Both the position numbers and the translations under genes were made by a program. The notes beneath the pieces are model-generated. The model worked only from the letters and a program-made list of their open reading frames with translations. It ran no database searches and had not been told where the DNA came from. A stretch of 39,192 nucleotides of DNA from Acanthamoeba castellanii str. Neff (lineage: Eukaryota; Discosea; Longamoebia; Acanthamoebidae): assembly GCF_000313135.1 (NCBI RefSeq), contig NW_004457367.1:48503-87694 (forward strand), read 5' to 3'. Positions 8,027 through 39,192 of the stretch are shown here, one piece after another. Positions within the stretch are counted from its first letter, which is position 1. Each line of letters starts with the position of its first letter.

Positions 8027-10105
8027 ATGGAGACGACGGACGATTTTGTGGAGGTGGAACTGCCCGACAACGAGTACTTCCACGAGGGGGTGGTGGGTCT
8101 GGCAATGGATATTGTAGCCGATTGTAAAATGGTGGTGGAGACGGTCAATGGGATCAACACCGAAATGGAACCCGACACCACCGACACGACCGATGCCATC
8201 AAAGAAACCTTCGTGCAGGCCATCAAGCGAGTTCCGCAGAGTGCTGCACGTCTCGTGGACATGACGCACCAGTTTATTAGAGAAAATGCTGCGTTCTACC
8301 TTGACGACCAGCAGTATCTGGTTCGCCTTGTTCCCCCTCTTTTTTTTCTTTGTTTCTTGTTTTTAAATCATCAAAAAAAAACGCGTTGTATGGTGGCAAA
8401 TTATCACTTCAAACCGCATCAATTAAGGTTCATTTATGTTTATTTGTTCTGAATTATTATTTTCTTATTTAAAACCCAACAAAACAAAACAAATCAACAG
8501 GATCTGTTCAAGATTCTGCAAGCCAACACGCGAGCGGTAAAGGAAAGTGTGTTGCTGCTGTTGCGATTGGCCACGGTGTCGGTGTGGACCACCAAGTCGG
8601 CCGCCACGACGGCCAAGACGCAGGGCCAGCTGGAGACCTACTGCAAGAACGTCGCCCTGGCCATCAAGAAGGTCCTTCTTCCCTCCCTCCCAGCGCTTAG
8701 CCCTTTTCTCGGCTCCTCCTACGACTACTCACACCGGCGGCCGCGTGTCTGTGCAACGGTCTTCCCCCTTGGGTTCCTCCTGTGTGACCACCACCACGCG
8801 GCGCTGGTGTTGCGGCAACCTGCATCACGTGCACATGTTTTTATATATATAATATATATATATAAATGTATATAAACATGGATATATATATATGCAGGTC
8901 ATCGGAGCGGCAGATCAGCTGCGACTGATGCAGGAGCAAGAAGAGGAGGGCCTCATCGAGGAAGAGGCCGAGGAGCTCGCGCGTCTCGTCATGGACAAGA
9001 CCGTCCAGGTGCGGGGCGGGAGCGCCGTGTGCGTGTGTGTGTGCGTGTGCGTGTGCGTGAAATCTGGCCAGGATGGTGGTCCTCTCTGCGGACGCATATG
9101 GCCACACCTCCCGAGGATCTAATGGCATCGCCCTACCTTGGCTCTCTCCTCTATCTCCATTGATATATCCGCACAGCTGGCCCGGGCCGGTTCGGCGGCT
9201 GTCAAGGAGCTCGTGGAGGCCACCTACCAGCTGCAGGACAGGGAGCACTTTGTCGTCGCCGTCAAGAGCACCCTCCAGGCCATCACCCCTTTCGTTGGTG
9301 CGCCCTCTCTACCTCTCCTCTCCTGTGGTTCGTCCCTTTTTGTGGGCATCCGTTGGACCAATCCCGTTGGACGATCTCTTCTGTTGTTTGTTTCTCATCG
9401 CGCTGCTCTCTCCCCCCACGCGCGCGGGCAGATTTCGGGGCAGCGCTGTCCTTGCGAGAGGCCGACGCCCTGCGCAAGGCTGCCTTTGATTTCCTCACCG
9501 CCGCCAAGGCCGCGTTCCAGGTTTCACACCCCCCTCCTTTCGTGCTACCCCCCCCCGGGGGGTGTCCCTCCTCCGCCCGCCCCCCTTGCTTTTTAGAAGA
9601 GGTGATGCCCAACGTCGATATGAGCCTGACCCCGGCCTGACCCCCTCCCCCCTCCTCCTACTCCTCCTTCGACGTCGACATGTCGAATGCAACGACGAAA
9701 AGGCGCAAAATGACGACGCCAGCTTTGCGCGCCTGGAAAGTGCCAAGGACGGGCTGGCCGAAGCCATGCGCGCGACAGTGCTGGCAGCCCGCGCAATCAA
9801 CACAGAGGACATCGTACGCAATCAGCTTGCTCCTGCCGACGCGTTCGACGACGGCGCGGACGAGGCCGAGGAGGAGGAGGCCGAGGAGCCCTACCTGGCC
9901 CCCGCCCCCGTGCGCCCTGCCGCCGCCGCCGCCTCCTCCCCGCTGCTGATCGGCGCCCGCCAGTCCGCCCCTCCCGGTGCCCTCGCCCATCGCCTCGCTC
10001 CGCCCGCCTCCAACGGAGCCACCGGTGCGCTCCTCCCATCCCATTGGGTTCACCCATGCGTGCACTTGGCGTGCTCTCTCCTCTCATCCCTCCTCGCTGG
10101 CTCCC

Positions 10106-10136
<31 letters not shown>

Positions 10137-10348
10137 CTGCGCTCACTCGCCGCGCCACGCCAGGTTTCCGCAAGCAGACTCGAACGCAGAACTCCCTGCC
10201 CCCGGTGATGAATACGACGATGCAGCTACAACAGCGACAACAACAGACCCTGCACAGCGAGGGCGAGGACGGCCCTGGCAACGCAGACAAGATGCGGCAC
10301 ACCACCATGACTGGCCAGCACATCAACCAGATCCAAGTACTTACACGC

Positions 10349-10390
<42 letters not shown>

Positions 10391-12149
10391 ATGTCGGACT
10401 TCTACGCACGCACCAGCTGCCCCAGAAGGAGGAGGGATAGTGTACTGGGAGTGGCAACTGACACCGATGAACAACCAACAACCAACCAACCAACAACCAA
10501 CAACAGCTGCTGAGGCAGCACCTCCAACTGCCCCCGTCCGAAGCGCAAGCCGTGGTCAAGCGAGGCACCGTTCGCAGAAAGGTCCGCTGACGCGCCTCGC
10601 CCCCCCCCCGCCCTCCAACGCAGCTCTCCATTCCCCCGCGTTCCTACTTACACTGGGCGGGCGGGCGTTCCTCTGTGGTTCTCTCAGGTGGCGGCCAGGA
10701 AGAGCGAGGAGCCGTTGGCCGTGGACATGGCCAGATACGAAGCCGAGATCAAGAAGATCGAATTCCTACAGGTGATCCGCCCACACGCGACACACACACA
10801 CGTTTGGTGGTCGCGGATTAGAAGTCTTGTTTGTTTGTTTGTTTGTTTGTTTGTGGGGCGGGGTGGTCCTTGCTCCTTGGGGTGAGGGGTTGGCGGTAAC
10901 CTGCTGACTCGCGGGGTGGTGGTGGTGGTGGTCGGGCGCGTGCAGCGGTTCATGCGCAAGTGGCTCAGGATCAGCAAGTTCCGCAACACCGCCCTCAACT
11001 TCCTCACCGCGCCCGAGTCGGAGAGGCTCCGCAAGCGCAACATGGCCTTCAGGGAAATCGTCTGCACCGAACGGGTACCCCCTCCCTCAGCTGCCGCCGC
11101 CGCCTCACCTTGCTCTGCGCTAGTGAGAGGCCAATACACACATACACACATACACACGTACACACGTACACACGTACACACGTACACACGTACACACGTA
11201 CACACGTACACACACACACATACACACATACACACATACACACATACACACACATTCCTATGTACATGTAGCTGATAGGGGGTTGTGTCGGCGGCAACCA
11301 CGACATGCAGGGCTATGTGAACAACCTGGAGGAGCTCGAGAAGCGCATCATCTCCCCGCTCAAGGCCTCGTCGCACAGCTTCATCTCCGAGAAGGAGGTC
11401 GGTGTCCTCTTCTCCAACCTGGAGAGCATCACCTGCCTCAACATCCAGGTACTAACTACCGTCACAGCCACCCACCACCCACCGCCCACCACCGAGGACA
11501 AGGAGGGAAACGACACCGCCACGGATGGACTGGCTGGGATGGGATGGGCTGGGCTGGAACTTATGCGCCTGGGAGTGGTGGTGGCGGCGGCGGCTGTTGG
11601 GTGGGGGTTGCGTTACGTTGCGTTTTACCTCTTATATATATTTATATACATATGCTATGGTACCACAGATCCTGGAGCTGATGGAGGAGCGCATCGAGCA
11701 GTGGCCGTGCGAGGGCCGCTTTGCCGATATATTTATTGAAAAGGCCCCCGTGCTCCGGCTCTACACGGACTACCTCAACAACTACGACCGACAGGTGCCC
11801 CCCCCCCACCAACCTCGCTTGCTCGCTGAAGGTCAGGGATCAGCCGAGCCCATCGTTGGTCGGTGCTCTGGATGCGTGGTCGTCGTTCTCACGTTGGCTG
11901 GGCTGGGTTGTGTGGGAGTCCAGATGACTGTGCTCACCGAGTTGGAGAAGAAGCCGGCCTTCATCCAATTCATCAAGGCCTGCAAGGCCAAAATGAACCT
12001 GGGCAACTACCTCATCCTGCCCGTCCAGCGCCTCCCCCGATACGAGATCCTCCTCGAGGGGCTCAAGCGATACACCTCCGAGGAGCACGTCGACTACCCC
12101 AACATCATCGCCGCCCTCGACAAGGTACACACATCAAACAAAGCACGCA

Positions 12150-12181
<32 letters not shown>

Positions 12182-13303
12182 CACACAAAGCACACACTAC
12201 CCAACTGCACCGTACCACAGGAGTGGCTTATGGCGCTAACTCCAACCGTAATCAACCACAACCAACCACAGGTCAAAGAGCTCAACTCCCACGTGGACAA
12301 GAAGAAGAAGGACGAGGACAACCGACGAGCGATTCAGGAGATCCAAAAGGCCGTCTCCGGTGCACCCACTCTCTTTGTCGCCCACCGCCAGTTCATCAGG
12401 TACGCGCGAACGCGGCCCTATCCCATCTCCAGTGGCGGTTCGCTCACCGGCCGGCCACACGACAATCACCCTCCTCCCCCCCCCAATAACCAACCAACCA
12501 ACCACCCACCACCCACCACCCTCCTCGTCGTCGTCAATGCTTGCAGGGGCGGTCTCGTCGACGTGCTGGCGGGGAAGAAGAAGGAAAAGTTCTACGTCTA
12601 CCTCTTCACCGACATCCTGTTGCTGACCAAGGCCAAGGTACACCCCCCCCCGCGGGCTGCTGCTCCCCCTGCCCACCCACCTGCCACCAGCCGCCACCCA
12701 CCACAACAATCGGCGATGTCGCTTCAGGCCACGGCACATGCTTCTTCTTCTTCTTCTAACACGACCTCGTGCCCTCGTCATTGGCATCGATGCAGGTGAA
12801 AACCGTGGTGCCCGGTGCTGCCCGCCCCAAGTCCAAGCTCAAGGACTTGATCTACCTCAAGGTACCATTTGAAGTGATGCGCACCAGCCAGCCACCAGCC
12901 ACCACCACCAGCCACGGGACTCACTCACGGAGCACCTCCATTACTGTTCGTCCTCCTCCGCAGGATGGACCTTTTTCAGCTTCCGCCATGTCGTTGGACG
13001 GGTCTTCTGCCCTGCGGCTGGTACACTTGCCCCTCCCCTTTCTCTTTTCTCGAACTTCCCCACTCTCCCTCCCCCCTAGCCAATCGGGGGGGGGTTGACC
13101 GTCACGGTGTAGTGACCTCTCTCTTCCTCTCTCTCTCTCTCTCTCTCGCGTTGGTTGCGCTGTGGCTGGGCGAATGGTCGTTACAGGTCGGAGGGCGCAA
13201 GGAGTTTTTGTTCTGCTTCTCTTCCGACACAGAGCGGGACGGCTGGCAGAGGGACATCGACACCGTCCTGCGAGAGGAGGGCTGGAAGAAGATCTTCTAC
13301 TGA
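8027..13303 (+). CDS. RhoGEF (DH-PH) protein, 18 exons
   Basis: This is a Dbl-family guanine nucleotide exchange factor for Rho/Rac GTPases. Exons: 8027-8320, 8501-8671, 8898-9008, 9177-9297, 9432-9520, 9703-10024, 10164-10336, 10507-10581, 10688-10771, 10946-11074, 11311-11448, 11669-11794, 11924-12124, 12272-12399, 12547-12637, 12796-12861, 12964-13020, 13187-13303. Phase is kept throughout, giving 830 aa. Residues 1-260 are predicted helical and acidic (vinculin/talin-like in flavour, no firm family); about 260-430 is low complexity (poly-E, poly-A, Q-rich). The DH domain spans about 505-695 and includes the hallmark NYLILPVQRLPRYEILLEGL. A PH domain follows (about 715-825) with KFYVYLFTDILLLTKAK and a closing DGWQRDID helix. 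The start at 8027 is the first ATG of the open exon. The acceptor of exon 6 (9703) is the least certain border. The gene converges on its neighbour. Confidence 0.88.
10106..10135 (+). repeat. (AAT)n microsatellite in a RhoGEF intron
   Basis: About ten AAT units lie inside the sixth intron (10025-10163), between its donor and the CAG acceptor. Confidence 0.9.
10349..10390 (+). repeat. (CT)n-(CA)n compound microsatellite in a RhoGEF intron
   Basis: A CT run (about 10349-10369) passes directly into a CA run (10370-10390), close to the donor of the seventh intron (10337-10506). Confidence 0.9.
10827..10853 (+). repeat. (TTTG)n microsatellite in a RhoGEF intron
   Basis: Six to seven TTTG units lie in the intron 10772-10945. 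Confidence 0.9.
11134..11254 (+). repeat. (ACACAT/ACACGT)n array in a RhoGEF intron
   Basis: Alternating hexamer variants ACACAT and ACACGT form a 120-bp array inside the intron 11075-11310. The long valine/cysteine-rich frame on the opposite strand is only the translated repeat. Confidence 0.9.
12143..12187 (+). repeat. (GCAC)n-(AC)n microsatellite in a RhoGEF intron
   Basis: GCAC units pass into a CA run inside the intron 12125-12271. Confidence 0.9.
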
Positions 13304-13624: not shown

Positions 13625-14724
13625 TCAGTGTTTGTACAGCGCCCACGGGATGGCCACGTATTCCTCCCTAGATGGGATGGGCAAGCACCAGCAGCCCCAG
13701 CAAAGAGAGAGAGAGAGAGCGTCGGTTAGCCAGGCCACAAATGGGGGGGGGCTGCGTGCATGTAAATAAATGGGGCGGGCGGGCGGGCACACGTGGCGTA
13801 CCGGGTGCCCTTCGATTGCTCGGAGAGGTGGGGGAGGAGCCAGGTGTCGTGAGACTCCACCGGGCAGTCGATGTACACCCGCTTTCCTGCGATCGGATAG
13901 GGGGGTGGTGACCCCAACAATGAGGGTGCGAAGAGGGGGAAGAAGGGGGTCAGCGAGAAGCAGGTCGCTGTGTCCGTGCGGTGGTGCGTGCGTGGTGTGT
14001 GCGTACCGAGGGCGGCAGCGATGCCAATCTCGACAAAGGCCCAGAAGCAGTCCTTCTGGTCGGTGAGGCGTGCGTAGAGGACGTCGCACTTGCTGATCTG
14101 GTGGCGCGCGTTGTCGTAGAGGACCTGCTTCTCGCGCTCGTCCACGGTGAAGTCCCTCTGCTCGTCCCGCAGCACCGAGGCGAGGGCCGCGCCGCTCCGG
14201 GGCTCGTCGTCGAGCTGGTAGAAGTAGTCCACGTCGTGGTCGAGCCCCGGACACGAAAGGAAGTGGGGACCCACGTACACCCAATTGTCGTCCCATTCCA
14301 GCTCCAGATCGCGCAGTCCCCGCATCTTGTCGAGCAAGGGCAGCGCCTCCTGCTCGCTCCTCCACTCCAGTTCCTTGAACCGCCCCAACCCGCGCCAGTC
14401 TCGGCTCGGCGCATTGAAGAACATCATCTTGCCTGCTACGTAAATGCGCTGCTTGTCCACATGCTCCTTGCCCTCGCCACCAGCAACCCCCGTTGTTGTT
14501 TCTGTAGTCGCTGGGGTGGCCACCTCCTCGGGCATGGCCGCACTGGCACCGCTCGTCGGGTGCTGATCATGATGGGGTGAACCCCCCGCAGTGCTCGTCG
14601 TTGCCGTGGCTAGAGCGGGATGATCTTCGACCATAGCATCCCCATCTCCACCTTCCTGCCGTATATCGTGCACTGGGGCAGCCGACCCCAGGGAGGGCAC
14701 TGCTTCGTCCTTCTCGAGTTCCAT
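13625..14724 (-). CDS. nucleoside 2-deoxyribosyltransferase-like protein, 3 exons
   Basis: Exons in gene order: 14724-14007, 13886-13802, 13667-13625, giving 281 aa. The first 90 residues are low complexity (acid-, S/T- and A-rich). The domain starts at RIYVAGKM (about 93-100) and continues through KCDVLYARLTDQKDC (212-226), EIGIAAALGKRVYID (about 232-246) and a tail ending TREEYVAIPWALYKH. The strand-Asp (D214) and Glu-helix-GK (E232) arrangement is that of the NDT/Nuc_deoxyrib_tr fold, which cleaves or transfers N-glycosidic deoxyribose. Activity on a particular nucleoside is not shown; such folds also occur as small-molecule hydrolases in signalling. I chose the ATG at 14724 (MELEKDEA); an upstream TTG in frame follows a stop. 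The second exon reads through a good GTACGC donor if not spliced, and the third exon restores the family-like end. It is divergent from the VPS9 gene. Confidence 0.7.
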
Positions 14725-14976
14725 CTTCGCTTCTTTTCGAAGCCCCAAACGTTTTGCCGCCTTCTGTTCCCTTGTTGTCTCCAACGGTCCACTATTTCAA
14801 ATGACGCGTCCCTCAACGTTGCCCTCTGGAATGTGAGGCATCCGACTGTGCGCTGAGCCGAGGTGTTGGGTAACGGCACCCGGGTCTGGCCGCCCCACCA
14901 CACCCCCAGCCCTCGTCGCCATCCCCCCCCCCTACCACAACCACAACAACAATAATAATCTCAACAACATTAAAAT
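14725..14976. promoter_or_regulatory. divergent promoter region, NDT-like / LRR-VPS9 genes
   Basis: The 252 bp between the two start codons must hold the 5' sequences of both genes. On the plus side the leader directly before the ATG is A-rich (AACAACAATAATAATC, then CATTAAAAT). I see no strong TATA box. Shared regulation of the two genes is possible but is inferred from spacing only. Confidence 0.45.
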
Positions 14977-15811
14977 ATGGAGGCCTGGGACAGTGGGCTG
15001 GACGACGACAACGACGATAACGACCAGCGGCAGCTGCAGCAGCAGCACGGCGGCGAGGGTGCCCTCATTGCAGGCCTCAGCGGGTCTCCTGCCCTTCACG
15101 TACTGGACCACCACCACCACGACCGCCGCCGCCGCCATCATCAGCATCAGCATGAGGTGAAGGAGGAGGCTGGCCAGCAGCAGCTCGAAGAAGAGGACCC
15201 GCTGCTGCAGCCCCCGCACCACGAGGAACCGGAAAAGGAAAAGGAAAAGGAAGAGGAGGAGGAGGAGGACAACAACAATGAAGACAAAGATGAGGAAGAG
15301 GAAGAGGAAAAGGAAGAGGCCCTGCAGCTGCTGCAGGTGGGTACGGCACCAGTAGCAGCAGCAGCAGCACGAGGTGGCCGGGGCGTAGACGCACCACCGC
15401 CGTCACCGCCGCCCGTGGCGGTCGTGGGAGGCACTGCACCGGCCGCGGCAGCAGAGGAGGGCATCGCGTCGGACGAGGGCGGAGCCACGGGGGACGCTGC
15501 CGCTCCCGTCCCCGCCACCAGCGGCGGCGGCAGCAGCACGACGTCGTTCATCGATAGCGTGGGTCCCACCAAACTGGCCCACGTGCTGGCCCAGGCGCGC
15601 GCACAGAGGGCCACCCTCCTCTCCCTCACCGGTACCCCACCCATCACCTTCCCCCTCCGCCGCCGCTGCGGCCACCACGCCTGGGCAATTGCAGCGCGGC
15701 CTCCTCGTTCTCTCTCTCTCTCTGCATTGGTGGTGCGATGAATAGTGGTGCGCACCGCTCACCACTGTGGTGGTGGCTGGTGGCTGGTGGCGGTGGTACA
15801 CCGGGGTGTGT

Positions 15812-15844
<33 letters not shown>

Positions 15845-18721
15845 TGCAGGGTGCCTGGTGGCCGAGCAGGGTGGCGTGGTGCCCAGCCAGCTGTGTGAGC
15901 TGTCGTCGCTGACCCGACTGCACCTGGCCAAGAACCACCTCACCGCCCTCCCGCCCCTGTTCGGCCTCCTCTCCAACCTCGTCGTACGCCGCCCCCGCCA
16001 CAGGCCCGCCTGCTCCCTACACGCGTGCGTGTGTGTCCTGTGTTGTGTGTTGTGTGACCTCACCGCGTGCTCTGCGGTGGCTGCGGTGGGCGTGCTGCTG
16101 CTGCTGGTGGTGGTGGCTGGTGGTGGCTGGTGGTGGCTGGTGGCTGGTGAACATACAGGAGCTGGACGTGTCGGAGAACCGGCTGGCCGAGTTGCCGTCG
16201 TCGTTCTCGCGGCTGTCGTCGCTCGAGGTGCTCAACCTGGGCATGAACGAGCTCGCGGGGCTGCCGCCGGAGGTGGGCGACCTGAGCAGCCTGCGGGTGC
16301 TCAACCTCTCCTTCAACCGCCTCGCGGCGCTCCCCACGTGGCCGCTGGGGGCCTCGCTCACGGCCCTGGTGGACCTCGACCTCTCGGCCAACGCCCTCAC
16401 GGCCCTACCCCCGGCCCTCCCGCCCACCCTCACCTCGCTCCACCTCACCGACAACCGGCTCACCGCCCTCCCCGACGACTTTGGCCTCCACGTGCCCGTC
16501 CTCCGTCGTCTCGCTCTCGCCCGCAACGCCCTCTCCGCCCTCCCCGCCTCCTTCCCGCGCCTCACCCGCCTCCGGCAGCTCGACCTCCGCGACAACCGCC
16601 TCGCGTCCCTCCCCCACGACGCACACCTGCTTGCCAAGCTCAAGGTTCTACCCCCCCATCATCATCATCATCATCCCACCACTACCACCCCTACCATCCA
16701 CCGCCATATTTTAACCGCCCCGCCATCTACCGGTCTTGGTCGCGCCGTGTCTCGTGTGGCCTCCCGATCCATGCGTGGGGTGGCGTGGCGTGGCATGGCA
16801 TCACTAATCACCCAACCACCAATCACCAATCAGGTGCTGTTCCTGGAGGGCAATCCCCTGCGCATCCCGGTGCCCCATCTGCCGGAGGGCACGCACCGCT
16901 CCTTCGCCACCAACCCGTCGGCCATCCACGCCTACCTCTCCCTCTACCAATACGGTACGGGACCCGCCTCTCGCCTCTCGCCTCTCGCCTCTCGCCTCTC
17001 GCCTCTCGCCTCTCGCCTCACGCGCGGCACGTGTGCTGCAGGGGAGGGAGCTGCTGGGGAAGACGAACACACCCAGCGCATGAACCGGGAAAACGCGCGG
17101 CAGAGCCTCGAACGCATGGTACGCGTCCTCGAAGGCTGTGCCCCGGTGCCCCACCCCCAAATCCACACACACCACTGCCACTCACTGATGTGCGCGTGTG
17201 CGCGTGTGCGTGATCATCGCCAGTTCACGAATATCGATCCCGAGGTCATTAGCAGCGTGCTGGAGGCCTGTGAGGGAAGTGCCAATTCGGCCATCGAGTT
17301 TCTTCTCTCCATCAGCGAGACCCCGGCGATCAGGTGCGCGCCCGCTCTCTTCTCTTCCGCCAAAATTTGCGCGCGGCGTGTCGTGCATGCGCGCGGTGGC
17401 TGGTATGGCGAAGAAAGCGAGGCGGCGACTGATGGCTGTCGACGCCTCTTATGCAGCGCCGCTGCGGGGAGCGGCATCTCTCCAGCGGAAACCGGCGCCG
17501 CCTCGTCCCCCTCTGCACCGGGGCCGGCCTTCTCGTTCAGTTCCCTCCTGCAGGCCATCGAAGAAAAAATCGACGAGAAGATCATCGGCGACGTACGCCC
17601 TCCCTGACTCACGCCTCTCCCTCCTCCTCGCCTCGCCTCCTCAACTCCACCGCACACGACACACGCACACACACACATGCACGCACGCACACACATGCAC
17701 GCACGCACGCACATGCACGCACACTCGACAACCACGACACAGGACGCGAGCAGGAAGGCCCGCGACAGAAGCAGCAGTATGTTCACCAAAGTGCTCAACA
17801 CCATCAAGGACAAGATCAACGAGAACCAGCAGCTCGACCCGGCCAGGGATTCCGACGACCTGCCCACCCCCGTTCCCATCACCCCAGGTGCCCACCCACC
17901 CACCCTAAATCCCCCCCCCCACCGAGCAGGCACCCAGCCAGCACATGGCACATACCAACTAACTACCTGCACGCCCCCCCCCCCTTATTTAAATACGCGC
18001 ACAGAGCTCATGGCGCACCGGGCAGCCCGTGCGCGGGTGCCCGGGGGACGTCTGTCGCAGTCGTCCACCAACAATTTCCTCGTCTACGAGGTGAGTTCCC
18101 TCTCCTCCCCCTTCCCCACCTCTACCTCTCTACCTCTCTCTGCCCCATCCCGGTGGCGGCGGCCTCCATCCACGCATCATTGCCCTTCATCGTTCTCACC
18201 ACCACCGCCACCACAACCGCCGCCACGTTGCAGAAAGAGAACAACCGGATGCTGCGCGCGCTTTGCTCGCGACCCGAGTTCCGGGATCTGCTGAACGTGC
18301 TCAAGGAAAAGCAGGCACGCCCACCACCTCCCCCCTCGCAATCCGGGTGGCGCGTCTTGTCACTCTCGCTCTCTCGCTTTCGGTGGTGACGTGGCGGGCC
18401 TGACAGCGTGTTCTTTTCCTCCCCCTCCTCCTCGTTGGGCAGCTAACCCTGCTGGTGCCGCAAGACATCGTGCTCGATGGCGTCGCCATCACGCGGGATC
18501 TCCTGCAGACGCACATCGTGCAGTGGGAAGGCACGTGTACCCACCCACCCACCTTCTTTATCTCTTTATTTGCGTATATTTATTTTTCTTACCGTGGCGC
18601 ATCGCCAGATGAGCAATCGCCCCTCTTCTCGTCCCTGAACGACATCATGGGCTCCCTCTCGCCCGACATGCAGTCCATCATCCTCTCGCTCTCCGGGTGC
18701 TCTCTCCGCTCATGTTCAGGA

Positions 18722-18753
<32 letters not shown>

Positions 18754-18854
18754 CACACACACACACACACCACACACACACCACACAACACACACACACA
18801 CACCACACGTGCGCGCTTAATGGGCTCCCTTGCTCACCCGCAATCATTGCGTGC

Positions 18855-18889
<35 letters not shown>

Positions 18890-18901
18890 GCGGGGACGTG
18901 T

Positions 18902-18945
<44 letters not shown>

Positions 18946-21326: not shown

Positions 21327-21357
<31 letters not shown>

Positions 21358-23813: not shown

Positions 23814-23920
23814 GCAGCCCTTTCCTTTATTGGAAAATAAAAGACGGCCACACCCTTGGGGTTGGGCGGATGGGGGGCAGCTCTCTCTCTCTATGTACAC
23901 GCACCTATGTACGTCCGTCC

Positions 23921-26187: not shown

Positions 26188-26879
26188 CGTCTCGGTCGGC
26201 GAACGGAGGAGGAATGTTCGGGGCTGGGGTGGGGATCGAGGGACTCGTGGTAGTCGTCGGGGGGTTGTGTAGGTGCGGAGGTGGGCTTTGGCGAGAGAGC
26301 GAAAGCGAAAGCGACGGAGAAGATGAAGAAACTTACTCGAGAGAGGGGATTGATTTAGGCTCCTAAAGGTTTAAGAGCGGTGATGGGTGGTGGGCACGTA
26401 GATGAAGAGGTCGACAGTCTGTCTTGGAGTAGAGAGAGCTTGGTCTCTCTCTTGTCGGTCAGAGGGTCGCGGCCAGCAGTGGCCAATGAGCGCGGTGTGA
26501 CGCGAAAGCGAAGGGGGGGGCTGGTGGGCTGGGGGTGCGTGGAGGTGTGGTGGGCACTTGGGCGGTAAGGAACAAGTTCTAACGCCAAGCAAGTAAATAA
26601 ATACGCGGCCGAAAAAGACCCGTTGCTGGACAAGCGCGATTGGGCCACGGGGGTTGGGTTTCGGAGTTGGCGGACCGAGACTTGCCTTGTAGGGAAGGTT
26701 TGGGAGCGTTCGGTGGAGGATTCGGGAGAGATATAGCTCCCGTAGTGGGGGAACTGGTGCTCTGCATACCTGGGGTACCAGAGAAAAGGGAGACGACGAA
26801 GTGCCGTTGCCTGTCCTCGACGAATGGCAATAGCCGGCCATGTGCCGCCCTTTCCGGGAAATCTTGGTTGGTTCGCGAT
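26188..26879. other. intergenic region upstream of the transcription-factor gene
   Basis: This 692-bp gap contains the 5' region of the transcription-factor gene and the 3' region of CDK11, both on the minus strand. A purine-rich block (26284-26345, with GCGAAAGCGAAAGCGAC) reads as a pyrimidine-rich stretch on the coding strand and could be an initiation region. A 136-codon plus-strand frame (26640-27050) runs antisense into the last CDK11 exon; it has no recognisable features and I do not call it a gene. Confidence 0.45.
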
Positions 26880-28988: not shown

Positions 28989-29072
28989 GAACAAGACCAA
29001 CAATTCTTTTCCTTTTCTTTTCCCGATGCTTTTTTGTTGGCCAACTATTTCCTTTCTTTTTCGGCCGACACG

Positions 29073-29182
29073 TCAGTGAGGCAGCGTGGCGGAGTCGAGT
29101 TGAGCCAGCGAGGGCAGTGCAGCCACCACCTGACCACCACCGAACGTTCCGGGCTGGTGAGTTGATGTTCGGGTGGTGCTGT

Positions 29183-29220
<38 letters not shown>

Positions 29221-30958
29221 TTGGGAGTGTACCTGCTCCTGGTACTGGGGGTGTTTGGCCACGGGGTTGCCGTGGAGGTACACCGTCTCGATCGCGGGGG
29301 AGCGAATGCAGCGCAGCTCGTCAAAGGAGGCCAGCTGGTTGTCGTTGATCTGAAGAAAAGGTGCGTGCACCACAGTGAGCAACAAGTGCACTGGGCATCT
29401 TGAGCAGGCAGGTATGTAGAAAAACGGAAGGGGAGGCGGCAAACCCAGAGCTCCTCGAGAGACGTGAGGTGCTCAAGATTCTCGAGGTGCGCGATTCGGT
29501 TGGCCGACAGGTCGAGCGTCTTGAGGGACACCAAGTTATCGAGGCCGGCTATTCGGTCGATGCCGTTGTGAGAAAGGTAGAGCTCTTCAAGCAGTCGCAA
29601 GTTATCCAGTCCCGTGATCTCAGTCAGCCTGTTTGACTGCGCGCACAAGTTAAGGAGGAGAAGAAACACTTTCTTCGGCTGGCCGGTAGCGCGACGAGTA
29701 GGTACCTGGATGCTAAGTTTTCTGAGGTTGGTAAGCTGGTCCAGTCCCTGCTTTCATGAACGTTCGCGTACGTGCAGAGCAGGAAAGGAGGATTCAAGTC
29801 GTATAATAAGCTGAAGCCATAGAGATGCAAAAGGAAGACGCCTCCGCGTACCTGAATGCGTGTGATCTTGTTCTTGCCCAGCCACAGGTTCTCCAGGTTC
29901 ACGAGCCTATCCAGCCCCTCGATGGTCTGCACCCCACCGCGTGTACACACACGTGAACGCGCAACGTAAGCATCGTTTCCACCGTTTTGTGGTGCACCAC
30001 GTAAGCGCTCGGCATAACGAGCAAAGCAGCGCTTGGGAGGGGGGGGGACCCGGATTCTGTTGGACCCGAGCTCCAGGGTGGTGAGAGTGGTGAGGGTATC
30101 CAGGCCTGAGTAGCAGAAGCGATGATCATCAGCAGAGGAGCCACAGCACCGCAGAGCAGATCATGGCAGAAGCTGGGAAGAAAGAGGGAGGCGGAGGGAC
30201 TTGCCTTCGATCTTGGAGATCTTAGCAGCGATGAGATAGAGCTCGGTGAGGTGCGGCAGACCCTCGTGCGTCAAATTCTGGATGCGCCGGAAGACGTTGA
30301 AGGAGATGTCCAGGTACCTGCGACCACCCCCAACCAGTCAGTTTTGGCGAGTCCCGGCAAGAACGACTCTGTGGCAACAACGAGGCAGAAGAGCATCGAG
30401 CCGGTGGTGAGAAGGTACGTGAGGGAAGGAAGGGAGAGGTTCTCGAGAGCGGTGATTTGGTTGTCGTAGAGGTCCAGCTCGCGCAGGCTGGTGAGGGCCT
30501 CGAGGTTCTCGATCTTGTGCAGCTGGTTGTTGCGCACCACCAATTTCTGCCCTCGCCCACCACCACCAAGCAAGCGAGCAAGCAAACCGATGCAGCACCC
30601 GTCAGTCAGCTGCCCCCATAAGAAAACGTGGCGGGCACAGGGGGTAGGTGCTCACCTCCAGAGCGGGCAGGTTGTCGAGGTTCTCAAGGCGTTGGAGGCG
30701 GCAGTGGGTCAAATCCAACTCCTGTTTGGCAAAGGCCAAGCCCTCATCAGAAAGCCGCACCTCGTGGACCAGCAGATCTGTGCCTGCATAAAATGATGTA
30801 AACTGTACGAGAGGGTGGGGCACCTTGGTTGTGGGCGGTATGGTGTATCCCTCCCCCAAGCGGGAATGGGGCTTGTGGGACAGGTCCACGTATTCGGCAT
30901 TCTCCTCGATGGCGAACGAGGGCGTGTTTCCCCTACTCGCGGCTGGTGCACCCTCCAT
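29073..30958 (-). CDS. SDS22: SDS22-like protein phosphatase 1 regulatory subunit (PPP1R7), 9 exons
   Basis: Exons in gene order: 30958-30656, 30546-30419, 30317-30205, 30105-30050, 29926-29852, 29747-29706, 29636-29445, 29349-29233, 29129-29073, giving 360 aa. About eleven tandem 22-residue SDS22-class leucine-rich repeats fill residues 75-335, for example LRELDLYDNQITALENL, LELGSNRIRTIEGLDRL, LWLGKNKITRIQGLDQL and LYLSHNGIDRIAGLDNL. The C-terminal cap carries ETVYLHGNPVAKHPQY and LPSLAQLDSATLPH, matching the usual SDS22 end (LPxLxQLDAT). SDS22 binds the PP1 catalytic subunit and controls its maturation and nuclear and mitotic roles. The final exon has no ATG and is found only by splicing. 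The third intron has a GC donor (AAG followed by GCAAGT). The gene is divergent from the 7TM gene and just upstream of CDK11. Confidence 0.94.
29187..29219 (+). repeat. (GT)n microsatellite in an SDS22 intron
   Basis: A pure GT run lies just past the donor of the last SDS22 intron (29130-29232, gene on the minus strand), where it reads as (CA)n. Confidence 0.9.
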
Positions 30959-31071: not shown

Positions 31072-32730
31072 ATGCGGGGTCCCTTGCTGCCCGTGGGGGA
31101 CGCGTCGGGAGCGGAGGCCCTCGAGCACACCTTCGTGGTGTTGAGCGCGGTGTCACTGTGCCTCGTGGCACCGCTCGTGCTCACGTTCGTGGTGTTCAAG
31201 CGCAAGTTCCCGTCCTACCTCGTCCTTTCCTTCCTCTTGTGCTCCATGGGGCTCCCTCTCTTCAGCCTATTCAACGCCTTCTTCGGGTTCGTGCTGGCCG
31301 CCTTCTTTCTTTTCCCTGCCTCAATTCCGTCAGCTTTCGTTCTTTTAGGTCCCCTCCCGTCTGACTTGGCTGTTGTTGTTGGCGCGCGCGCGTGCGTAGG
31401 GTGGAGCACCTGCTACGGGAAGGAGGCGTGGCCTGCCAGGTGCAAGCCGTCGGCATCCAGTTCTTCGCGGCCGGCATCGTGTGGGCCTGGTTCTTCCTAG
31501 GCCTCAACCTCTACACCATCGCCGTCTGGCAGGTTCACCTCTGCTCCCACCCGCACTGCCGCTTTCCCCCACACACGACACACACGGCACACGACACGAC
31601 ACGACACGACACGACACGACACGACACGACACGACACGACACGACACGACACGACACGACACGACACGACACGACACGACACGACACGACACGACACGAC
31701 ACGACACGACACGACACGACACGACACGACACGACACGACACGACACGACACGACACGACACGACACGACACGACACGCACTTGCCAATTGCACTGAGGG
31801 TGGGTGCAGGTGGGCGGTGCCAAGAGGCTGGGTCGGGTGTACCTGGTCCTCACGTGGGGCTTTTCCGGCATCCAGACCATAATCCCGGTACCCCAAACCC
31901 CCGAACCACCTTTCCTCCCTCGCAGCTTCCTCTGCCCACACGAGCCATCATTCGTCCTTTATCTTTCATCATCGAACCACCACCGCCGCCACCACCGCCA
32001 CCACGATCATGCAGTTTGCGTTCGGGCACACGGGTCCGGCCGGCTTCTGGTGCTGGATCGACTCTGGCGACAATCACGCCTGGTACGTGCACTCACCCAG
32101 AACCGTGGCCTGGCGTGTTCTCACGCGCATCGCTTACCACGCGGTATCCGTGGTGGTGGTGGTGTGGTGGTGGTGGTGGTGGTGGTGTGGCAGGGAGCTG
32201 GGGTTCTTCTACGGGGAGGTCGGGCTGCTGCTGGCGGTGGGGGTGCTCCTCTGGGCGCGGGTGCTCTACGTGATCATCTCGTACTCGCTCGATCCGATGC
32301 GCGCGGGCCTGCACGGCTACCTGCTGCGCCACGCCCTGCTGGTCGCCATGTTCGTCGGCGTCATGGTGGTGCTCTTCACCTACCGCCTCTACCAGATCTT
32401 CGACGACCCCCCGTTCTTCTTCCAAGCACGTGCGTGCCCCCAACCGCATTGACGTCGACTGATCGCATGTGTTTGTTGTTTTATTTTGCTCTCATTATGA
32501 TCATGGTTGGTGCAGTGCACGTGGTGTCGCTGTCGGGGCAGGGCTTCATCACATTCATCTGCTTCGGCATCTCCAAGGAGAACTACAACCTGTGGAAGAA
32601 GGCCGCCCTCGCTGGCGCCCGGCGGCTCCGGCGATGCTGTCGGCCGACGGCCCGCGACCCGGCCCCCTGGCGCGGGGACGAGGACACCGTGCTCCTCTCG
32701 TCGGACCACGACCCCGACGGTGAGCGGTGA
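31072..32730 (+). CDS. cAMP-receptor-like seven-transmembrane protein (GPCR), 6 exons
   Basis: Exons: 31072-31286, 31400-31532, 31810-31887, 32015-32082, 32194-32429, 32516-32730, giving 314 aa. Seven hydrophobic segments can be placed: about 22-42, 48-70, 88-112, 122-142, 167-190, 212-236 and 246-264. Family-type marks are a cysteine at the start of the third segment (VACQVQAVGIQFF), the extracellular GFWCWID motif (about 152-158) before segment 5, and SLSGQGFITFICFGISKE in segment 7, as in cAR/CRL-type receptors of amoebozoans and secretin-like relatives. The cytoplasmic tail is basic then acidic (RRLRRCC, EDTVLLSSDHDPD) with possible phosphorylation sites. Ligand is unknown. The join of exons 5 and 6 makes a leucine codon (CTG) and is the least certain. 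It converges on the zinc transporter, with 153 bp between stop codons. Confidence 0.75.
31588..31778 (+). repeat. (ACACG)n pentanucleotide array in a receptor intron
   Basis: About 38 nearly perfect ACACG units form a 190-bp array in the intron 31533-31809, making it the longest and most uniform microsatellite in the window. All six frames are open across it (5-bp unit without stops), which creates spurious reading frames such as TTRHD and RVVSC repeats. Confidence 0.95.
32149..32192 (+). repeat. (TGG)n run in a receptor intron
   Basis: TGG units extend from the centre of the intron 32083-32193 to its CAG acceptor, so this acceptor lacks a polypyrimidine tract. Confidence 0.85.
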
Positions 32731-32883: not shown

Positions 32884-35445
32884 CTACTCGTGGGTGCTTT
32901 GGAAGCACTCGGGCAGATCGTGCGGGTCGACCTGGATGGTGGCGTGGTTGATGCCGTACCTCGCACACGTCTCCTGCGCAGCGCCCAACACCTCGCGCTG
33001 CTCGGCTCCCTCCTCCGCTCTGTTCCCGCACCCTCAACGTGTGAGAGAAGAGCCTCCATTCAATGTATGCATTGGTGGTACAGGTGGCGAGCCGGGTGTG
33101 GGGGTACCGGATGTGGCACGACAGATAGACCTTGCCCAGGGTGATCTGCCAGATGTGCAGATCGTGCACACTGCTCACCCCTGCACCCCCCCAACCATGC
33201 CGACACACCTTGGGGAGATGAGGAGCTGCTGCTGCCATCACCGCGGACTAGCGGAGAGAGCAGTATTGGAGGAGAGGGGGGAGGGTGGAGTACGAACCGT
33301 CGATGGCTTCGAGGGAGGCGTGCACGAGGTCGAACGAGATGTGGGAGGGGACCGTCTCCATCAGTACGCCCAGGATCTGCCGCAAGATCCTGCACGCGCG
33401 CCCAACCCCCCCCCAAGTTAATTCCAGTTCAGTTCCACCCGCGAAGGGAGAAGCGTCAAAGAAAGCGAAAACATGTAAAGGGGAATAGCGGGTACTTGAC
33501 GGTGGTGAAGAGGGTGATCACGCCAAAGACCAGGGACGCGATCGGGTCGGCCAAGTTGAAATAGGTCCGCGAAGCGCTCGGGGAGCCCGTGGTCACTTGG
33601 TTGCCCACCTGCAGCACATTTCGATATACGCAGGGGCGGCGTAAGCAACGTGTTCGCGGGGGGGGGGGTGACCAGACAACGTTGGGCCAACAGAACCCAC
33701 ACCCAACGTTGTCTGCATCAGTGCGCGAGCAGGCCAATGATGCGGGTGCTATATACCCATACGACCACCGCGGCGCCGATGATGCCCACCGACTGGATGC
33801 AATCGCCAAGCACGTGAATGAGAGCCGCCCGCACGTTGACGTTGCCTGGATGAACACCGCCCCCGCCCACACCACACAAACTTCAGCATCGTGGATACAC
33901 GGGCGTGCCGGCCGGATCCTCGTGTCACATCTTGGGAAAGGCGCGTCGTCATACCCTCGTGGCCGTGGCCGTGTCCGTGCGAGTGCGCGTGCCCGGTGTG
34001 GGTGCGCACCACCTCGACCACCTCTTCGCCTGCCAATATTTATATATAGAAAGGTAGAAATCACCGTGAGTGAGGGGCAGTACTCTTAGGGGGCGAGGGA
34101 GGCGAGAGAAGTGTACCGGGGGCGGGGACTGGCGGAGGCGGCGGCGGACCGTGGGAGTGGCCGTGGGGCGCGTTGCCCCACGCCAGGATGAGCGCATCAA
34201 CGATATTCACCACCAACCCGCACACTACGCCACAACACACACACACACACACACACACACACGGCGCGCGTGTAAGACCATGCGCTCCATCAGAGGCACT
34301 GACAAACGCATTTGATTTTGAGGGAGGGAGGGAGGTGTAATGTATACCTCCAATGATGGTCATGATGCGGCCATCGAGAGTTTCGCCCTCCTCTCTGCGC
34401 GCAGCACGTCCGGTGACAATTAGTGTACCGCCGGTCGTCGTTGGAAAGGGAATGGAAGGGATGCGGCTGGACGCCGAGTGTGTACTTGATGTCCGCGATG
34501 AGTCTGAGGATGGCCTCGTAGACGAGCACGCCCACGAGCGCCCAGATCATCAGCACCGAGGCCAACGCGCCCAGGATCTCTGCCCTGGAGTCGAGAAGCA
34601 CAACAAACAACAACAACAACAACACACACAGCGAAGATGAGGAGGGTGAGGAGATGGTTGGCCCATGGTTGGAGCTAGTCATGTGGGCGTGGTGGTGGAG
34701 GAGGTGGGGTCACCTGTAGAAGCCGAACGACATGCTCTTGGTGGGTGCTCGGCGGGCGATACCCATAGCCACAAGCGACAGGAGCATCGCCGCCACATCG
34801 GTCAACTGGCACCGATTGTTCGCGTGTGCGTGTGCGGTGAGTAAGGGCACAATGCAACGAGCGGCTGCATGTGCATGCGTGAGGGGGCCAAATGAAGTGA
34901 AGTGATTGGGGGGGGGTACGCACCAGATGGGCGGCGTCTGTGATGATGGCGAGGGAATTGGCGAGTACGCCGCCCACGATTTCGCCCACCATGAAGACCA
35001 GCGTAAAGACCGTGGCAACGGTGAGAGCAATCATGGCCTTCCTGTCCCCCGCATCCATCTTGCGCTTTCCCTTCTTCCCCTTCTTCTTCATTATTGTCTG
35101 TGTGAGTCAGAGTGCCCGTTCGTTCTGGTGCTGCAGCATGGCAGCCACGCGGCTCGTTCAAAGAAACCAGCGGTTGTACCTTTGAGCCGTGGCCGTGCCC
35201 ATGACCGTGGCCGTCGTCGTGGGAATGAAGCTGGTGCTACGGCGGAGAAGTGCGGTGCAGCGGGGGGGGGGGCTTACGTGAGCTGGGCAGTGCGGCACAA
35301 CGTATGCGCAAGGTGGCCACGTCCTGCACGGAACAGGCGTATGCACAAGGTGGCGTACAAGTAGCGGCGCCCTTTCACCTCCAAGCGAGGACCCGCCGTC
35401 TTGTACGTTGCCCGGCGAGTAGTGAGCACCCTCCTCCTCATCCAT
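32884..35445 (-). CDS. CDF/ZnT-family zinc transporter, 13 exons
   Basis: Exons in gene order: 35445-35359, 35230-35180, 35097-34924, 34805-34714, 34584-34486, 34394-34348, 34224-34117, 34029-33955, 33845-33757, 33608-33496, 33389-33298, 33180-33108, 33019-32884, giving 411 aa. Cation diffusion facilitators exchange Zn2+ for H+ across organelle or plasma membranes. The metal site of segment 2 (TDAAHLLTD) and that of segment 5 (HVLGD) have the H/D pattern of zinc-selective ZnT proteins. MSFGFYRAEILGALASVLMI and DGRIMTIIG are family hallmarks. There are two histidine-rich stretches: N-terminal HSHDDGHGHGHGHG and the loop between segments 4 and 5 (GHSHG, then HTGHAHSHGHGHGHEG). The cytoplasmic ferredoxin-like end contains VHDLHIWQIT and closes with TIQVDPHDLPECFQSTHE. 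Several exons lack ATG and are found only by splicing. It is divergent from the C2-TPR-PH gene. Confidence 0.93.
34233..34263 (+). repeat. (CA)n microsatellite in a zinc-transporter intron
   Basis: A pure CA run lies upstream of the exon 7 acceptor in the intron 34225-34347; on the coding strand it reads as (TG)n in the tract position. Confidence 0.9.
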
Positions 35446-35633: not shown

Positions 35634-38600
35634 ATGGACTCAACAGTGTCGGGACGAGCTTATGTGACGGGTACATGCCACACCACCCCGAGCCTGTTGC
35701 TTTCGCCGAAACGGTTTGTTGGGGGGGGGGTAACAACCACCTTCGCCACCGTCAGTGGTGCGGGGGGCCGACAAACGGGGCGACTCTGCCGAGGCCGAGG
35801 GCGGGCTCTACTATGTGCTGGCGGCCTCAGACGTGGCCAAGGCCAAGACCCGCTCCGTGCCCGGCCCGACATCCGCCTGGAACGACACCCTCCAGCTGTG
35901 CGTGCTCCTCCCCCTGCCCTTGCCCTTCCGCCATTGGCCGTCGTGTGTGCTGAGAGTTAAGGCGTGGCTGGCTGCCTGGCGGATGGCAGGGACGTCGACC
36001 ACCCGTTCGGCAAGCTGGAGGTGTTCCTGTGGCGGGAGCTCAGCGGCGGCTCTGACCAGTTCCTGGTACGAACGTTCACCCACCACCGCCGCCGCCGCCG
36101 CCAGGCCTGCATTCATGCCAACGTGAGGCGCGCACAATTTGTGCTTAATTCAGAGACTGTGTGGCTCGTTTTGCGGTCTTGTGTTGCGTGTGTGTGTGTG
36201 TGTGTGTGTGATCAGGGTCGCGTGACGGTGCCGCTGGTGGAGATCTGCGACGGGAAGCCCCATCAAAACGTGCACCCGCTGCAGGGGCGGGCGGCCGAGG
36301 AGCACGTGGCGGGCGAACTGGAGCTGCTCGTCCAGTTCAAGTACATCCGCGTACCGTGCCCCCCCTTGCCCCCATCTAAGTCTTCTTTCGCGGCTTGTCT
36401 CGTCTGCCACGCGTGCCTCACAAGTGTGGTGGCGGGTACACGCGATGCTGCTGGTGGTGAGCAGAGCTGGGACATTCTGTATCGGGGCATCCAGTACATG
36501 TTCGAGCAGCAATGGACCAACGCCGCACAGGCCCTCACCTCGGCCATCCAGTCGTTCCCAGGTGCACCCCTCTCCTCCCCTCCTTTTGTTGCCTTTTGCA
36601 TTTACGTTTGCTGTAGTAGTTGCTGTTGCTCTGCTCACTCTCGGCGTGGTGGTGGTGGCCTGGTGGCCCTGTGGCCTGCAGATGTGGAGCACCTCTACAG
36701 CTACCGATCGGAAGTGTTCCTCCAGATGAACAAGCTCTCCGAGGCACCTCTTCATCCCACCCCACCCCACCGTCATGACCTGGACTAACCAATGCCGTGT
36801 GTCATCGTGTCGTCGTGTGTCGTGTGTCGTCGTGTCGTCGTGTCGTGCGTCGTCGTGTCGTGCGGGGCACCACTAGGCGATGGCGGATGCGGGCAAGGTG
36901 GTGGACATGAACCCCAATTGGGCGGAGGGGTACTACCGCGTGGGCCGGGCCTTTTTCGCCGCGCAGGACTACACACGCGCCGAGGAGGCCTACCAGGAGG
37001 GCCTCAAGAAGAACCCCACCGACCCCAACCTGGTCCAGGGCGTGGAGCTCATCCGACGCAACTTCACCAAGTCCCAGGTGCACCCGCCCCACCCCCACCC
37101 ACTGCTCAAACGCAACGCATCCTAACCACACACGCGCGCGCGCGTGTGGTGGGGGGGGGATGGTCGCATGCAGGTACGGGAATCGATGATGGCGGGCAAG
37201 GCGTGCTTCTCGCGTCGCGAGTTCGTGGCGGCCACGCTCCAGTTCACTCGGTAACCAAACCACTTTTGGACCCCTCGCTCTGTTCTTTTTGATCTGGCGT
37301 GGTGCCTTCCCGGAACCCCGAATTTACCCCCCATTCACTCACTTGAATGCAGGGCGCTGGAGGCCAATCCGGCGAGTGCGGCGCTGCTCATGTACCGCGC
37401 CATCGCCTACATGGCCAACGGCAACAACGCCCAGGCACAACGCCCCATCTCTCCCCCCCCCTCCCTAACCACCCCCGACCTACTGACGCGATCGTGTTGT
37501 TGTTGGTTGTTGGTTGGTTGTTGGTTGTTGTTGGTTGTTGTTGGTTGGTTGTTAATGCCGTAGGCGTACGAGGACGCCATGCAAATCGCCCGTCTCCACC
37601 CCGATTGGCCCAAGACGGAGGCGGCCAAGCAGGGCATGCTGGGTAAGCGTGGGCGGGGCAACATCAAGTCCAAGCCCCGCTGGTTCGTCCTCAAGCACCG
37701 CTTCCTCTACTACTACGACTCCAGCGCCGTACGCTGCCTCCCTCCCTTCTCCCTTTTTGCCGGTGCCGGCGTTGCTCACGCACGTGCGGGGGGGGGGCTG
37801 GGGATTGTTGCGCACTCGCAGGACACGGAGCCCAACGGGGTGATCTGCCTGGCGGGCTTCGAGATCAAACCGGAGGGCCGCTTCGAAATCAACGCCGAGG
37901 GCCGCTTCCAGATCGCCTTCCCCGAGTACTACTACACTCCGCACCGCGCGCCAATGGAGGAACGAACGAAAAGGTGGGGCTGACGGTGGTGGCTGATGGG
38001 TGACGCAGGCGCTCGTTCCGGCTGAAGGCCACATCCGACGCTGAGAAGGACGAGTGGGTGCGCCATCTCACCCCTCTCGCCGACTCCCCCCTCAGCCTGC
38101 CCCTCGACCAGGTGCCCCTCTCCTCCCCGCCCCGCCCTTCCGATTCCTTTGCGCATGGCCCTCTCCCCCAACGCCCCCTTACCTTGTGTGCCGTGTGTGT
38201 GTGTGCCGTGTGTCGTTGGCGGTGTCGTTGGTCGTGTCGTGTGTGCATAGAGCGAGAACGTGATCTACTGGAACACGCCGGCCCTGGCCAAAACGCACTC
38301 CTACACGGCGCTCCTCGACGCCCTCCCCTCCCTCCTCCCCATCAAGGTATGACCGCCATTCATCACTCCTCTCGGCCTTCTGCTCCCCAACAATCTCCTC
38401 ACCTCGCGCCACTTCCCGCCTTTGCTGTCCGCATGGCGGCTTGCGCGTTGGCTGGTTGGCTGGTTGGTTGCAATCGCCAGCTGGCCTCGACGGTGGCGCG
38501 GCGGATCGACACGGCCCTCACGACCGTCTCCATCAGCAACGCCGACCACGAGGGATGGCTCGCCAAGCGGCGCGAGCTCATCGACGAGTACAAGCAGCGG

Positions 38601-39192
38601 TACCTCCTCCTCTCCTCCCACCACCACCACAACTCCAAACACTCAACACACTCCCTGGTTGCGACATTACTACCAATAATCATCATCATCATCATCATAT
38701 ACAAGTTATCATCCATAATCATCCTCATCGTAATATAATATATAATATCGCGTGCTTGCGCGCCATTGGTAATCGTTAATGGGCTGGCAGGTGGTTCGTG
38801 CTGAAGGACGCGAGCCTGCACTACTTTGACGACCAGCAGCCCAAGGACCCGCAGAACGTGACGGCGCAGGGCCTGATCGAGCTGCAGGGCACCACGCTCA
38901 AGGTCACCAGCGCGCTCCTCTTCATGTTCGAGATCGCCCGGTCCGACCACGTCGTCTACAAGCTGCGTGCCGAGAACGCGCACGACTTTGGGGTGTGGAT
39001 CGACAAGCTCGGCCGCGTGTGCAAGCGCCTCGGCCACCACCTCGACTCGAGTTCCATCCTGCAGCCCTCCGACGACGCGCCCGCCGCCCCGCCCTCGCCC
39101 GTCGCCCCGCTTTCGCCCGCCACCTCTCGCCCCGCGCCCGTCGCCGCCGCCGCAGCCGCCGACTGGAACTCAAGCGGGAGCGGCAGCACCAC
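35634..39192 (+). CDS. C2-TPR-PH-PH protein, 3' end beyond window (15 exons seen)
   Basis: Exons: 35634-35670, 35756-35897, 35990-36065, 36216-36350, 36465-36561, 36682-36743, 36877-37077, 37174-37250, 37353-37434, 37564-37728, 37822-37925, 38009-38111, 38251-38346, 38481-38599, 38791-39192+. At least 632 residues. A C2 domain (about 1-130) starts AYVTVVRGADKRG and includes GKLEVFLWRELSGGSDQFLG; the usual calcium-binding Asp set appears incomplete. TPR-like helical pairs (131-320) include AMADAGKVVDMNPNWAEGYY and EEAYQEGLKKNPTDPN. The first PH domain (about 325-427) has PRWFVLKHRFLYYYDS and KATSDAEKDEWV; the second (about 476-605) has EGWLAKRR, RWFVLKDASLHYFDD and a closing FGVWIDKL helix. 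A P/A/S-rich tail is cut by the window end. C2 and PH modules suggest recruitment to phosphoinositide membranes; the TPRs suggest partner binding. Two introns (36744-36876 and 37435-37563) use GC donors. Confidence 0.85.
36801..36870 (+). repeat. (GTGTCGTC)n-like array in an intron of the C2-TPR-PH gene
   Basis: Short units GTGTC and GTC alternate irregularly through the GC-AG intron 36744-36876. Confidence 0.85.
37493..37556 (+). repeat. (GTTG/GTT)n array in an intron of the C2-TPR-PH gene
   Basis: Units GTTG and GTTGTT alternate up to the TAG acceptor of the GC-AG intron 37435-37563. Confidence 0.85.
38677..38700 (+). repeat. (ATC)n run in an intron of the C2-TPR-PH gene
   Basis: About seven ATC units lie inside an unusually AT-rich intron (38600-38790) that also holds a TATAATATATAATA patch (38733-38750). 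Confidence 0.85.

Follow-up and report, generated by a model that had tools for sequence, protein, structure and literature searches.

The intron-start signal and its U1 snRNA reader appear to have changed together in Acanthamoeba castellanii

Introduction

What reads the start of an intron when gene after gene carries C, where the usual GTAAGT has A, at the fourth donor position (+4)? The question is raised by the stretch of Acanthamoeba castellanii str. Neff DNA analysed here (39,192 nucleotides of contig NW_004457367.1; hereafter the window), for which an original prediction had proposed a lineage-wide shift in donor recognition and named an altered U6 box, loss of U6 methylation and a changed U1 5' end as candidate causes. 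In Saccharomycotina, the U1 sequence ACUUACC (227 of the 230 genomes with a candidate) and U6 ACAGA are invariant where found, and switches at +4 track the loss of METTL16 and SNRNP27K (Parker and others 2023, PMC10581693). For A. castellanii, a 2010 EST study counted 1,232 GT-AG and 21 GC-AG U2-type introns, and the available part of its text remarks on a C-rich stretch in U12 introns with no discussion of +4 (PMC2846911), while the 2013 genome paper reports 6.2 introns per gene and, in its available text, holds no words beginning snRNA or spliceosom (PMC4053784). Among the literature matches listed, with subscription papers and supplements outside their scope, we recognised no earlier report of +4C donors or of a U1 with G at position 5 (G5) in Acanthamoeba. 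We think it likely that the introns are of the ordinary U2-type GT-AG kind and that their donor consensus has moved from GTAAGT to GTACG(C/T) because the main U1 has G, not U, at position 5.

Results

Donors were evaluated in the window and in 200 kb of contig C124, from an assembly of 38.4 Mb in 250 contigs, with a two-strand gene finder built on a codon-position model that in its first form demanded nothing of an intron beyond a GT start and an AG end. Intron counts were limited to genes scoring at least 30, which left 84 of 93 genes in this flat GT/AG run and 86 of 95 in a run with trained sites. A still earlier gene finder, single-stranded and without a cost for intron length, had been rejected for fusing genes into one of 99 exons, and its figure for +4C (39.4% of 612) was not used. 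The flat run placed C at +4 in 304 of 517 introns (58.8%), with a donor profile of 43% A at +3, 59% C at +4, 43% G at +5 and 52% G at -1, preferences that emerged although the finder had no input on those positions. With trained sites, +4C rose to 400 of 519 introns (77.1%; 70 of 91 in the window and 330 of 428 on C124). Since training might feed on itself, the runs were repeated with parts of the donor masked, and these revealed +4C in 366 of 519 introns when +4 alone was masked, in 337 of 523 when all intronic donor positions were, and in 322 of 525 when the whole donor was masked and only the acceptor trained (61 to 71% across the masked runs). Donor calls are mostly model-derived, and across the flat, trained and masked runs the +4 base of model introns was C in 59 to 78% and A in 9 to 12%. 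The canonical consensus, (C/A)AG|GTRAGT, does not describe these donors at +4; the other preferences are kept, namely G at -1, A at -2, A at +3 (66%) and G at +5 (55%).

This preference exceeds chance. Where GT occurs elsewhere, the corresponding position was C in 897 of 3955 cases in introns (22.7%) and in 1941 of 5377 in exons (36.1%), and relative to the nearby intron sequence at +8 to +12 (45% C), the 396 of 507 GT donors with +4C gave a binomial p of 1.6e-52, with G at +4 depleted from 15% to 2.4% (12 of 507). Both strands shared the bias (243 of 315 and 168 of 212 introns, GC donors included), as did 48 of the 52 genes having at least four introns, so that the earlier claim of a bias in unrelated genes on both strands holds, and a genome-wide shift in donor recognition is supported within the reach of the window and of 200 kb on one other contig. 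Among the 527 model introns, on which GT or GC and AG were imposed, 507 begin with GT and 20 with GC, as expected for GT-AG introns; 15 of the 20 GC-AG introns also carry +4C, 13 of these as GCAC. The 20 GC donors were left out of the GT-only tests (composition, compensation and duplex/AUC).

Within the window, automatic models of genes scoring at least 30 contain 92 introns, with +4 being C in 72, T in 10, A in 8 and G in 2, and their +4C donors comprise 35 GTAC, 22 GTGC, 8 GTTC, 3 GTCC and 4 GCAC. Some automatic borders are wrong, e.g. those at 9027, 11581, 27742 and 33762, and rereading by eye changed the first three to GTGC, GTAC and GTAC. As a check independent of the gene finder's donors, we also counted donors from database proteins, P0241 and P0122, aligned to the window by a program given nothing beyond the genetic code and a slight reward for GT and AG, with GC rewarded less, which revealed +4 as C in 27 of 33 introns, T in 3 and A in 3. 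P0241 accounts for 23 of these, all GT-AG, 21 with +4C and two with +4A; one of its 24 gaps (19104-19133; 30 nt without an AG), which would have scored +4C, was dropped before counting, and the gap at 15100 among the 21, which is 45 bases long and in frame, could reflect strain variation and not an intron; leaving it out gives 26 of 32. P0122 supplies ten, all GT-AG (6 C, 3 T and 1 A), and moved one border of the automatic models, from 33762 to 33756, giving a +4T donor, GTAT. As P0241 is a database annotation, its own borders may be predictions. P0122, by comparison, has source contigs no longer than 2,334 bases and reads as one uninterrupted frame of 344 residues, while the gene itself covers about 2.2 kb and holds ten introns; we infer that the protein stems from spliced RNA. 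Together these counts confirm the bias that had been put at 74 of 88 donors with +4C, 42 of them GTAC; the wording "near-uniform" was slightly strong for a proportion of about 78 to 82%.

These donors lie in genes along both strands of the window. A RhoGEF-domain gene (8027..13303, forward; 20 exons in the automatic model) holds a RhoGEF match (PF00621) within the ORF at 11456-12796, and a misplaced border near 10440 leaves its model with one in-frame stop. It is followed by a small three-exon gene (13628..14535, reverse; automatic model), in which both donors are GTACGC and a weak nucleoside 2-deoxyribosyltransferase match falls below the Pfam cut-off. The LRR gene (14620..22070, forward) is drawn from the spliced alignment of P0241 and has an LRR Pfam match; P0241, from A. 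castellanii str. Neff, starts further in than the automatic model and matches it with 92% identity over 100% coverage, gene-model differences included. The database relative of this gene also lists PF02204, which we take to be VPS9. Automatic model and P0241 agree here on an intron at 15984..16158 (forward; GTC|GTACGC) and on one of the gene's two +4A introns, at 18091..18233 (forward; GAG|GTGAGT); at 18315 the automatic model has a GC-AG intron and P0241 uses a GT donor. Four reverse-strand genes come next: a three-exon gene (22236..23727; automatic model) with both donors GTGCGC; a mostly single-exon gene (24128..26841; donors GTATGC and GTACTC) whose long ORF at 24274-26370 gave no Pfam match; a CDK11 orthologue (26883..28988) with five introns and automatic donors GTACGC, GTGCGC, GTGTAG, GTACCC and GTAAAC, the third of which was set by hand to TTTG|GTACCT, restoring WYRAPELL; and an orthologue of SDS22 (PP1 regulatory subunit 7; 29076..30958), six of whose nine introns are +4C and which includes a GC-AG intron at 30204 (GCAAGT).

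A gene for a slime-mold cAMP-receptor-like protein (31072..32730, forward) has five introns, all +4C (GTTC, GTTC, GTAC, GTAC and GTGC), and an ACACG tandem repeat of 41 copies lies within one of its introns (31573-31778). The cation-diffusion-facilitator transporter (32887..35091, reverse) has ten introns, six +4C, three +4T and one +4A, by P0121 and P0122; its model, a zinc transporter, matches the A. castellanii protein P0121 with 94% identity over 99% coverage, gene-model differences included, and the automatic model and both proteins agree on the intron at 34806..34923 (reverse; CTG|GTGCGT). Its introns were counted via P0122, leaving two extra or different junctions of P0121 (35358 and 34428, both +4C) uncounted. 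P0121 retains 19 extra residues (window 34485-34395), with its donor at 34428 and that of P0122 at 34485, both GTACAC. Lastly, a C2-TPR-PH-domain gene (35634..38876, forward; 15 introns in the automatic model) has GCAC donors at 36744 and 37435, and a third, at 38818, is probably an artefact of the window's end. At the other end, window 1-8000 has a GC content of 46 to 48%, against 58 to 70% beyond, and holds inverted repeats that are probably the remains of mobile elements; arms with 81 to 92% complementarity span 3020-3461 and 3972-4406, and short inverted repeats lie at 197-1488.

Turning to the RNA that would read these donors, a search of the assembly with Rfam RF00003 (E up to 1) revealed six U1-like matches, five of which pass the gathering cut-off of 69.5 bits (80.1 to 98.6 bits) while the sixth, L014, scores 42.2 bits and falls below it. 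Three bacterial or archaeal control genomes also matched U1 at this loose threshold, none above the cut-off, and a U1 pattern search returned the identical six genes with zero control matches. Five of the six genes start AUACGUACC (equally, ATACGTACC), with G5 replacing U5, and one retains the canonical AUACUUACCUGG (ATACTTACCTGG), so that the standard U1 5' end, AUACUUACCUG, is found in one gene of six. Letter by letter, four genes read ATACGTACCTTGCTGG, the weak sixth (C152:198815) reads ATACGTACCAGTCTGG and one (C122:138519) reads ATACTTACCTGGCTGG; four of the five G5 genes also carry U at position 11 (G11-to-U). A changed U1 5' end, one of the causes suggested at the outset, is seen directly. 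In human and yeast, U1 position 5 is a pseudouridine.

The five G5 genes are spread over three contigs with dissimilar upstream flanks. In covariance alignments of L009, L010, L011 and L012, the GAUCA and AUUGCAC loops and AAUUUGUG are all retained; we take these to be the U1-70K, U1A and Sm sites. CCA(C/T)AA, which has a background frequency of 0.015 per 36-nt genomic stretch, stands upstream of all six U1 genes in an element starting at -59 to -62, and three of eight U2 genes inspected (from 15 U2 matches) have it too, at -57 to -59. In those eight U2 genes (L001-L008), three have CCACAA at -57 to -59 and no TATA, four have TATA at -30/-31, and L007 has neither. The canonical U1 gene, L009 (C122:138381-138549), is full-length and has the top Rfam score, 98.6 bits, which counts against the G5 reading.

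G5 would form a Watson-Crick pair with C at +4 and a wobble with T, leaving +4A and +4G mismatched, and the donors fit this expectation. For 497 donors (-3 to +8; called with +4 masked), the mean duplex energy, calculated like the AUC values below without pseudouridine, was -7.39 kcal/mol with U1-G5 and -4.62 kcal/mol with the canonical end, G5 being the stronger partner for 421 donors, the canonical end for 69 and neither for 7. Decoy GTs favoured G5 as well, which weakens this argument: over 3,000 of them the corresponding means were -4.02 and -2.50, with G5 stronger in 2299. We also scanned nine U1 positions, changing each to every other base (27 changes) and separating donors from decoys by Watson-Crick pairs, and U5-to-G brought the largest gain in AUC, from 0.842 to 0.876, followed by A1-to-G (0.860), G11-to-U (0.849) and A1-to-U (0.845), with no rise for the remaining 23. 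A1-to-G raises the AUC though absent from the U1 genes, which implies that C-rich introns favour G at other U1 positions too, and the scan thus supports the fit without proving it.

A further expectation is that donors mismatched to G5 compensate elsewhere. Across five call sets, one of which used none of -3, -2, -1 and +4, A at -2 was present in 57 to 70% of +4A donors, 37 to 40% of +4C donors and 32 to 45% of +4T donors (+4C against +4A, p 0.0093, 3.4e-5, 0.00035, 0.0013 and 0.0015; +4T against +4A, p 0.0026, 0.0012, 0.026, 0.0025 and 0.0018). This extra -2A in +4A donors, and not in +4T donors, supports compensation as G5 pairing predicts. The +4G donors go against it: in the flat set 11 of 55 have -2A, below +4C (p 0.013), the masked sets reveal no difference, and the full set has 7 of 12; as these donors are also the weakest at other positions in the flat set, many may be false calls. 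G at -1 did not differ between +4C and +4A donors in any of the five sets (p 0.11 to 1). Nor does donor position -3 follow U11 (C 40%, A 28%), and -3A together with +4C is if anything rarer (Fisher 0.05), the opposite sign to that expected from U11.

Other factors that act at +4 are present in the genome. A METTL16 gene lies at C59:209607-210514 in three Pfam-matching stretches, and its eight-exon model, in which CNPPF is kept, has the human U6 A43 methyltransferase as its best solved match (E 2.3e-63), so that the loss of U6 methylation suggested as a cause is unsupported at the gene level. An SNRNP27 gene at C200:372650-372904, with a weak solved match (E 0.0012), keeps YRQYMNRK, whose M we take to be Met141 in human numbering. 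A switch by METTL16 or SNRNP27K loss would entail an absent METTL16, or an absent SNRNP27K or lost Met141, and both genes are here with the methionine region intact. The C-terminal tail past YRQYMNRK is short and appears to differ from that of the human protein. The four donors of the SNRNP27 gene (GTAACC, GTAACA, GTAACT and GTATTG, the first two by eye) include none with +4C, against about 77% of model introns. Two Rfam searches, four patterns and the human sequence all failed to turn up a U6 gene in the assembly: Rfam scores reached no more than 15.1 bits, where the cut-off is 44, and none of the pattern sites inspected (nine of one pattern, read; 20 of 32 of another, read and Rfam-scanned) was U6. 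As U1 and U2 were found in several copies, U6 is probably missing from the assembly.

Discussion

The donor bias, the U1 gene sequences and their mutual fit are direct observations, and on these the intron-start signal and its U1 reader appear to have changed together. The proposed mechanism is that the G5 genes would supply the U1 used in splicing, that G5 pairing would drive donor choice, and that U1 and donors would have changed jointly. It is the same U1-donor pairing as elsewhere, with one base pair rewritten. A narrower version we hold tentatively, as a serious possibility: that the U1-donor code at one position was rewritten genome-wide through U1 alone, from pseudouridine5 with A4 to G5 with C4, with METTL16, SNRNP27K and U6 ACAGA kept. 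If so, the choice at +4 would be set by U1, the U6 base at m6A43 that faces it would be freed from its usual partner, and the one canonical U1 still present would represent either a relic or a second class of U1.

That last option leads to a different division of labour, in which two U1 classes share the introns, U1-G5 serving +4C donors and canonical U1 serving +4A donors. The intact canonical gene with the common upstream element would suit it, as would the SNRNP27 gene with its three +4A donors and one +4T donor; yet +4A donors do not prefer -3C, the partner of canonical G11 (14 of 47, against 171 of 396 for +4C), and are unclustered by gene (p 0.92), and we consider such sharing quite unlikely. 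Also unlikely, in our view, is that U6 drives the shift, the central A of ACAGA having changed (e.g. to G) so that +4C pairs in U6 and the U1 change is secondary or parallel. Once U1 has left, +4 faces U6 A43, and a changed ACAGA centre is reported for Cyanidioschyzon merolae (PMC10581693); this would moreover predict the identical -2A pattern in +4A donors, so compensation speaks for either RNA. What favours U1 is that its change is seen and suffices for first-step pairing, whereas nothing points directly to U6, whose gene the searches of the assembly did not turn up.

Loss of METTL16 or SNRNP27K function, as in Saccharomycotina, would be a natural candidate given that both are known to act at +4 (PMC10581693), and the short, different SNRNP27 tail agrees with it; against this stand the METTL16 gene with its strong match (E 2.3e-63) and CNPPF, the kept methionine region of SNRNP27, and the fact that the loss in yeasts yields +4U, not +4C, all of which makes it very improbable. 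Base content, finally, might place C at +4 in introns that are about 45% C at +8 to +12, but it would have to do so beside 66% A at +3 and 55% G at +5, raise C to 78% at +4 (p 1.6e-52), take G from 15% to 2.4% and leave the matching base in the U1 genes to chance. Composition by itself is hardly credible and is refuted by the donor counts unless most model borders are wrong.

Shifted donors and changed snRNAs have been met elsewhere in other forms. Human variant paralogues and engineered versions of U1 show that an altered 5' end can redirect the choice of donor; in Acanthamoeba the change reaches five of six genes and the majority of introns. A diplonemid with an extra U1 belongs to a genus that we take to be Sulcionema. 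In this species, S. specki, a U1 gene with a changed 5' end likewise stands beside a conserved one, but the extra U1 carries a C run and both forms are said to pair comparably with the canonical donor logo (PMC12621601), whereas the changed form of Acanthamoeba is the majority and matches a changed logo. The Saccharomycotina offer a similar lineage-level change of the preferred +4 base, from A to U (PMC10581693); Acanthamoeba differs in its altered U1 position 5 (five of six genes), in having METTL16 and in having moved to C. In Cyanidioschyzon merolae, too, the snRNA base facing donor +4 has changed (PMC10581693), but in U6 and not in U1, which that alga is said to lack (PMC6461891). Fritillaria borealis shares splice sites shifted across the whole genome, but is said to have kept its U1 5' end strictly, the explanations proposed there being RNA modification and duplication of U2AF (PMC13326754). 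The amoebozoan Entamoeba histolytica also has altered U1-based donor recognition, in its case with U1 snRNA said to be absent (PMC13292270), against six genes here.

In the available text of two studies of lineages with changed donors, the U1 5' end is unchanged (PMC10581693, PMC13326754), and the exceptions that we met are the extra U1 of the diplonemid (PMC12621601) and lineages said to be without U1 (PMC6461891, PMC13292270). A naturally changed U1 matched by its donors, in an amoeba averaging some six introns per gene (PMC4053784), would allow the roles of U1 and U6 at +4 to be separated, and would mean that a core RNA code can move. For Acanthamoeba itself, gene finders trained on GTAAGT may misplace intron borders across the genome.
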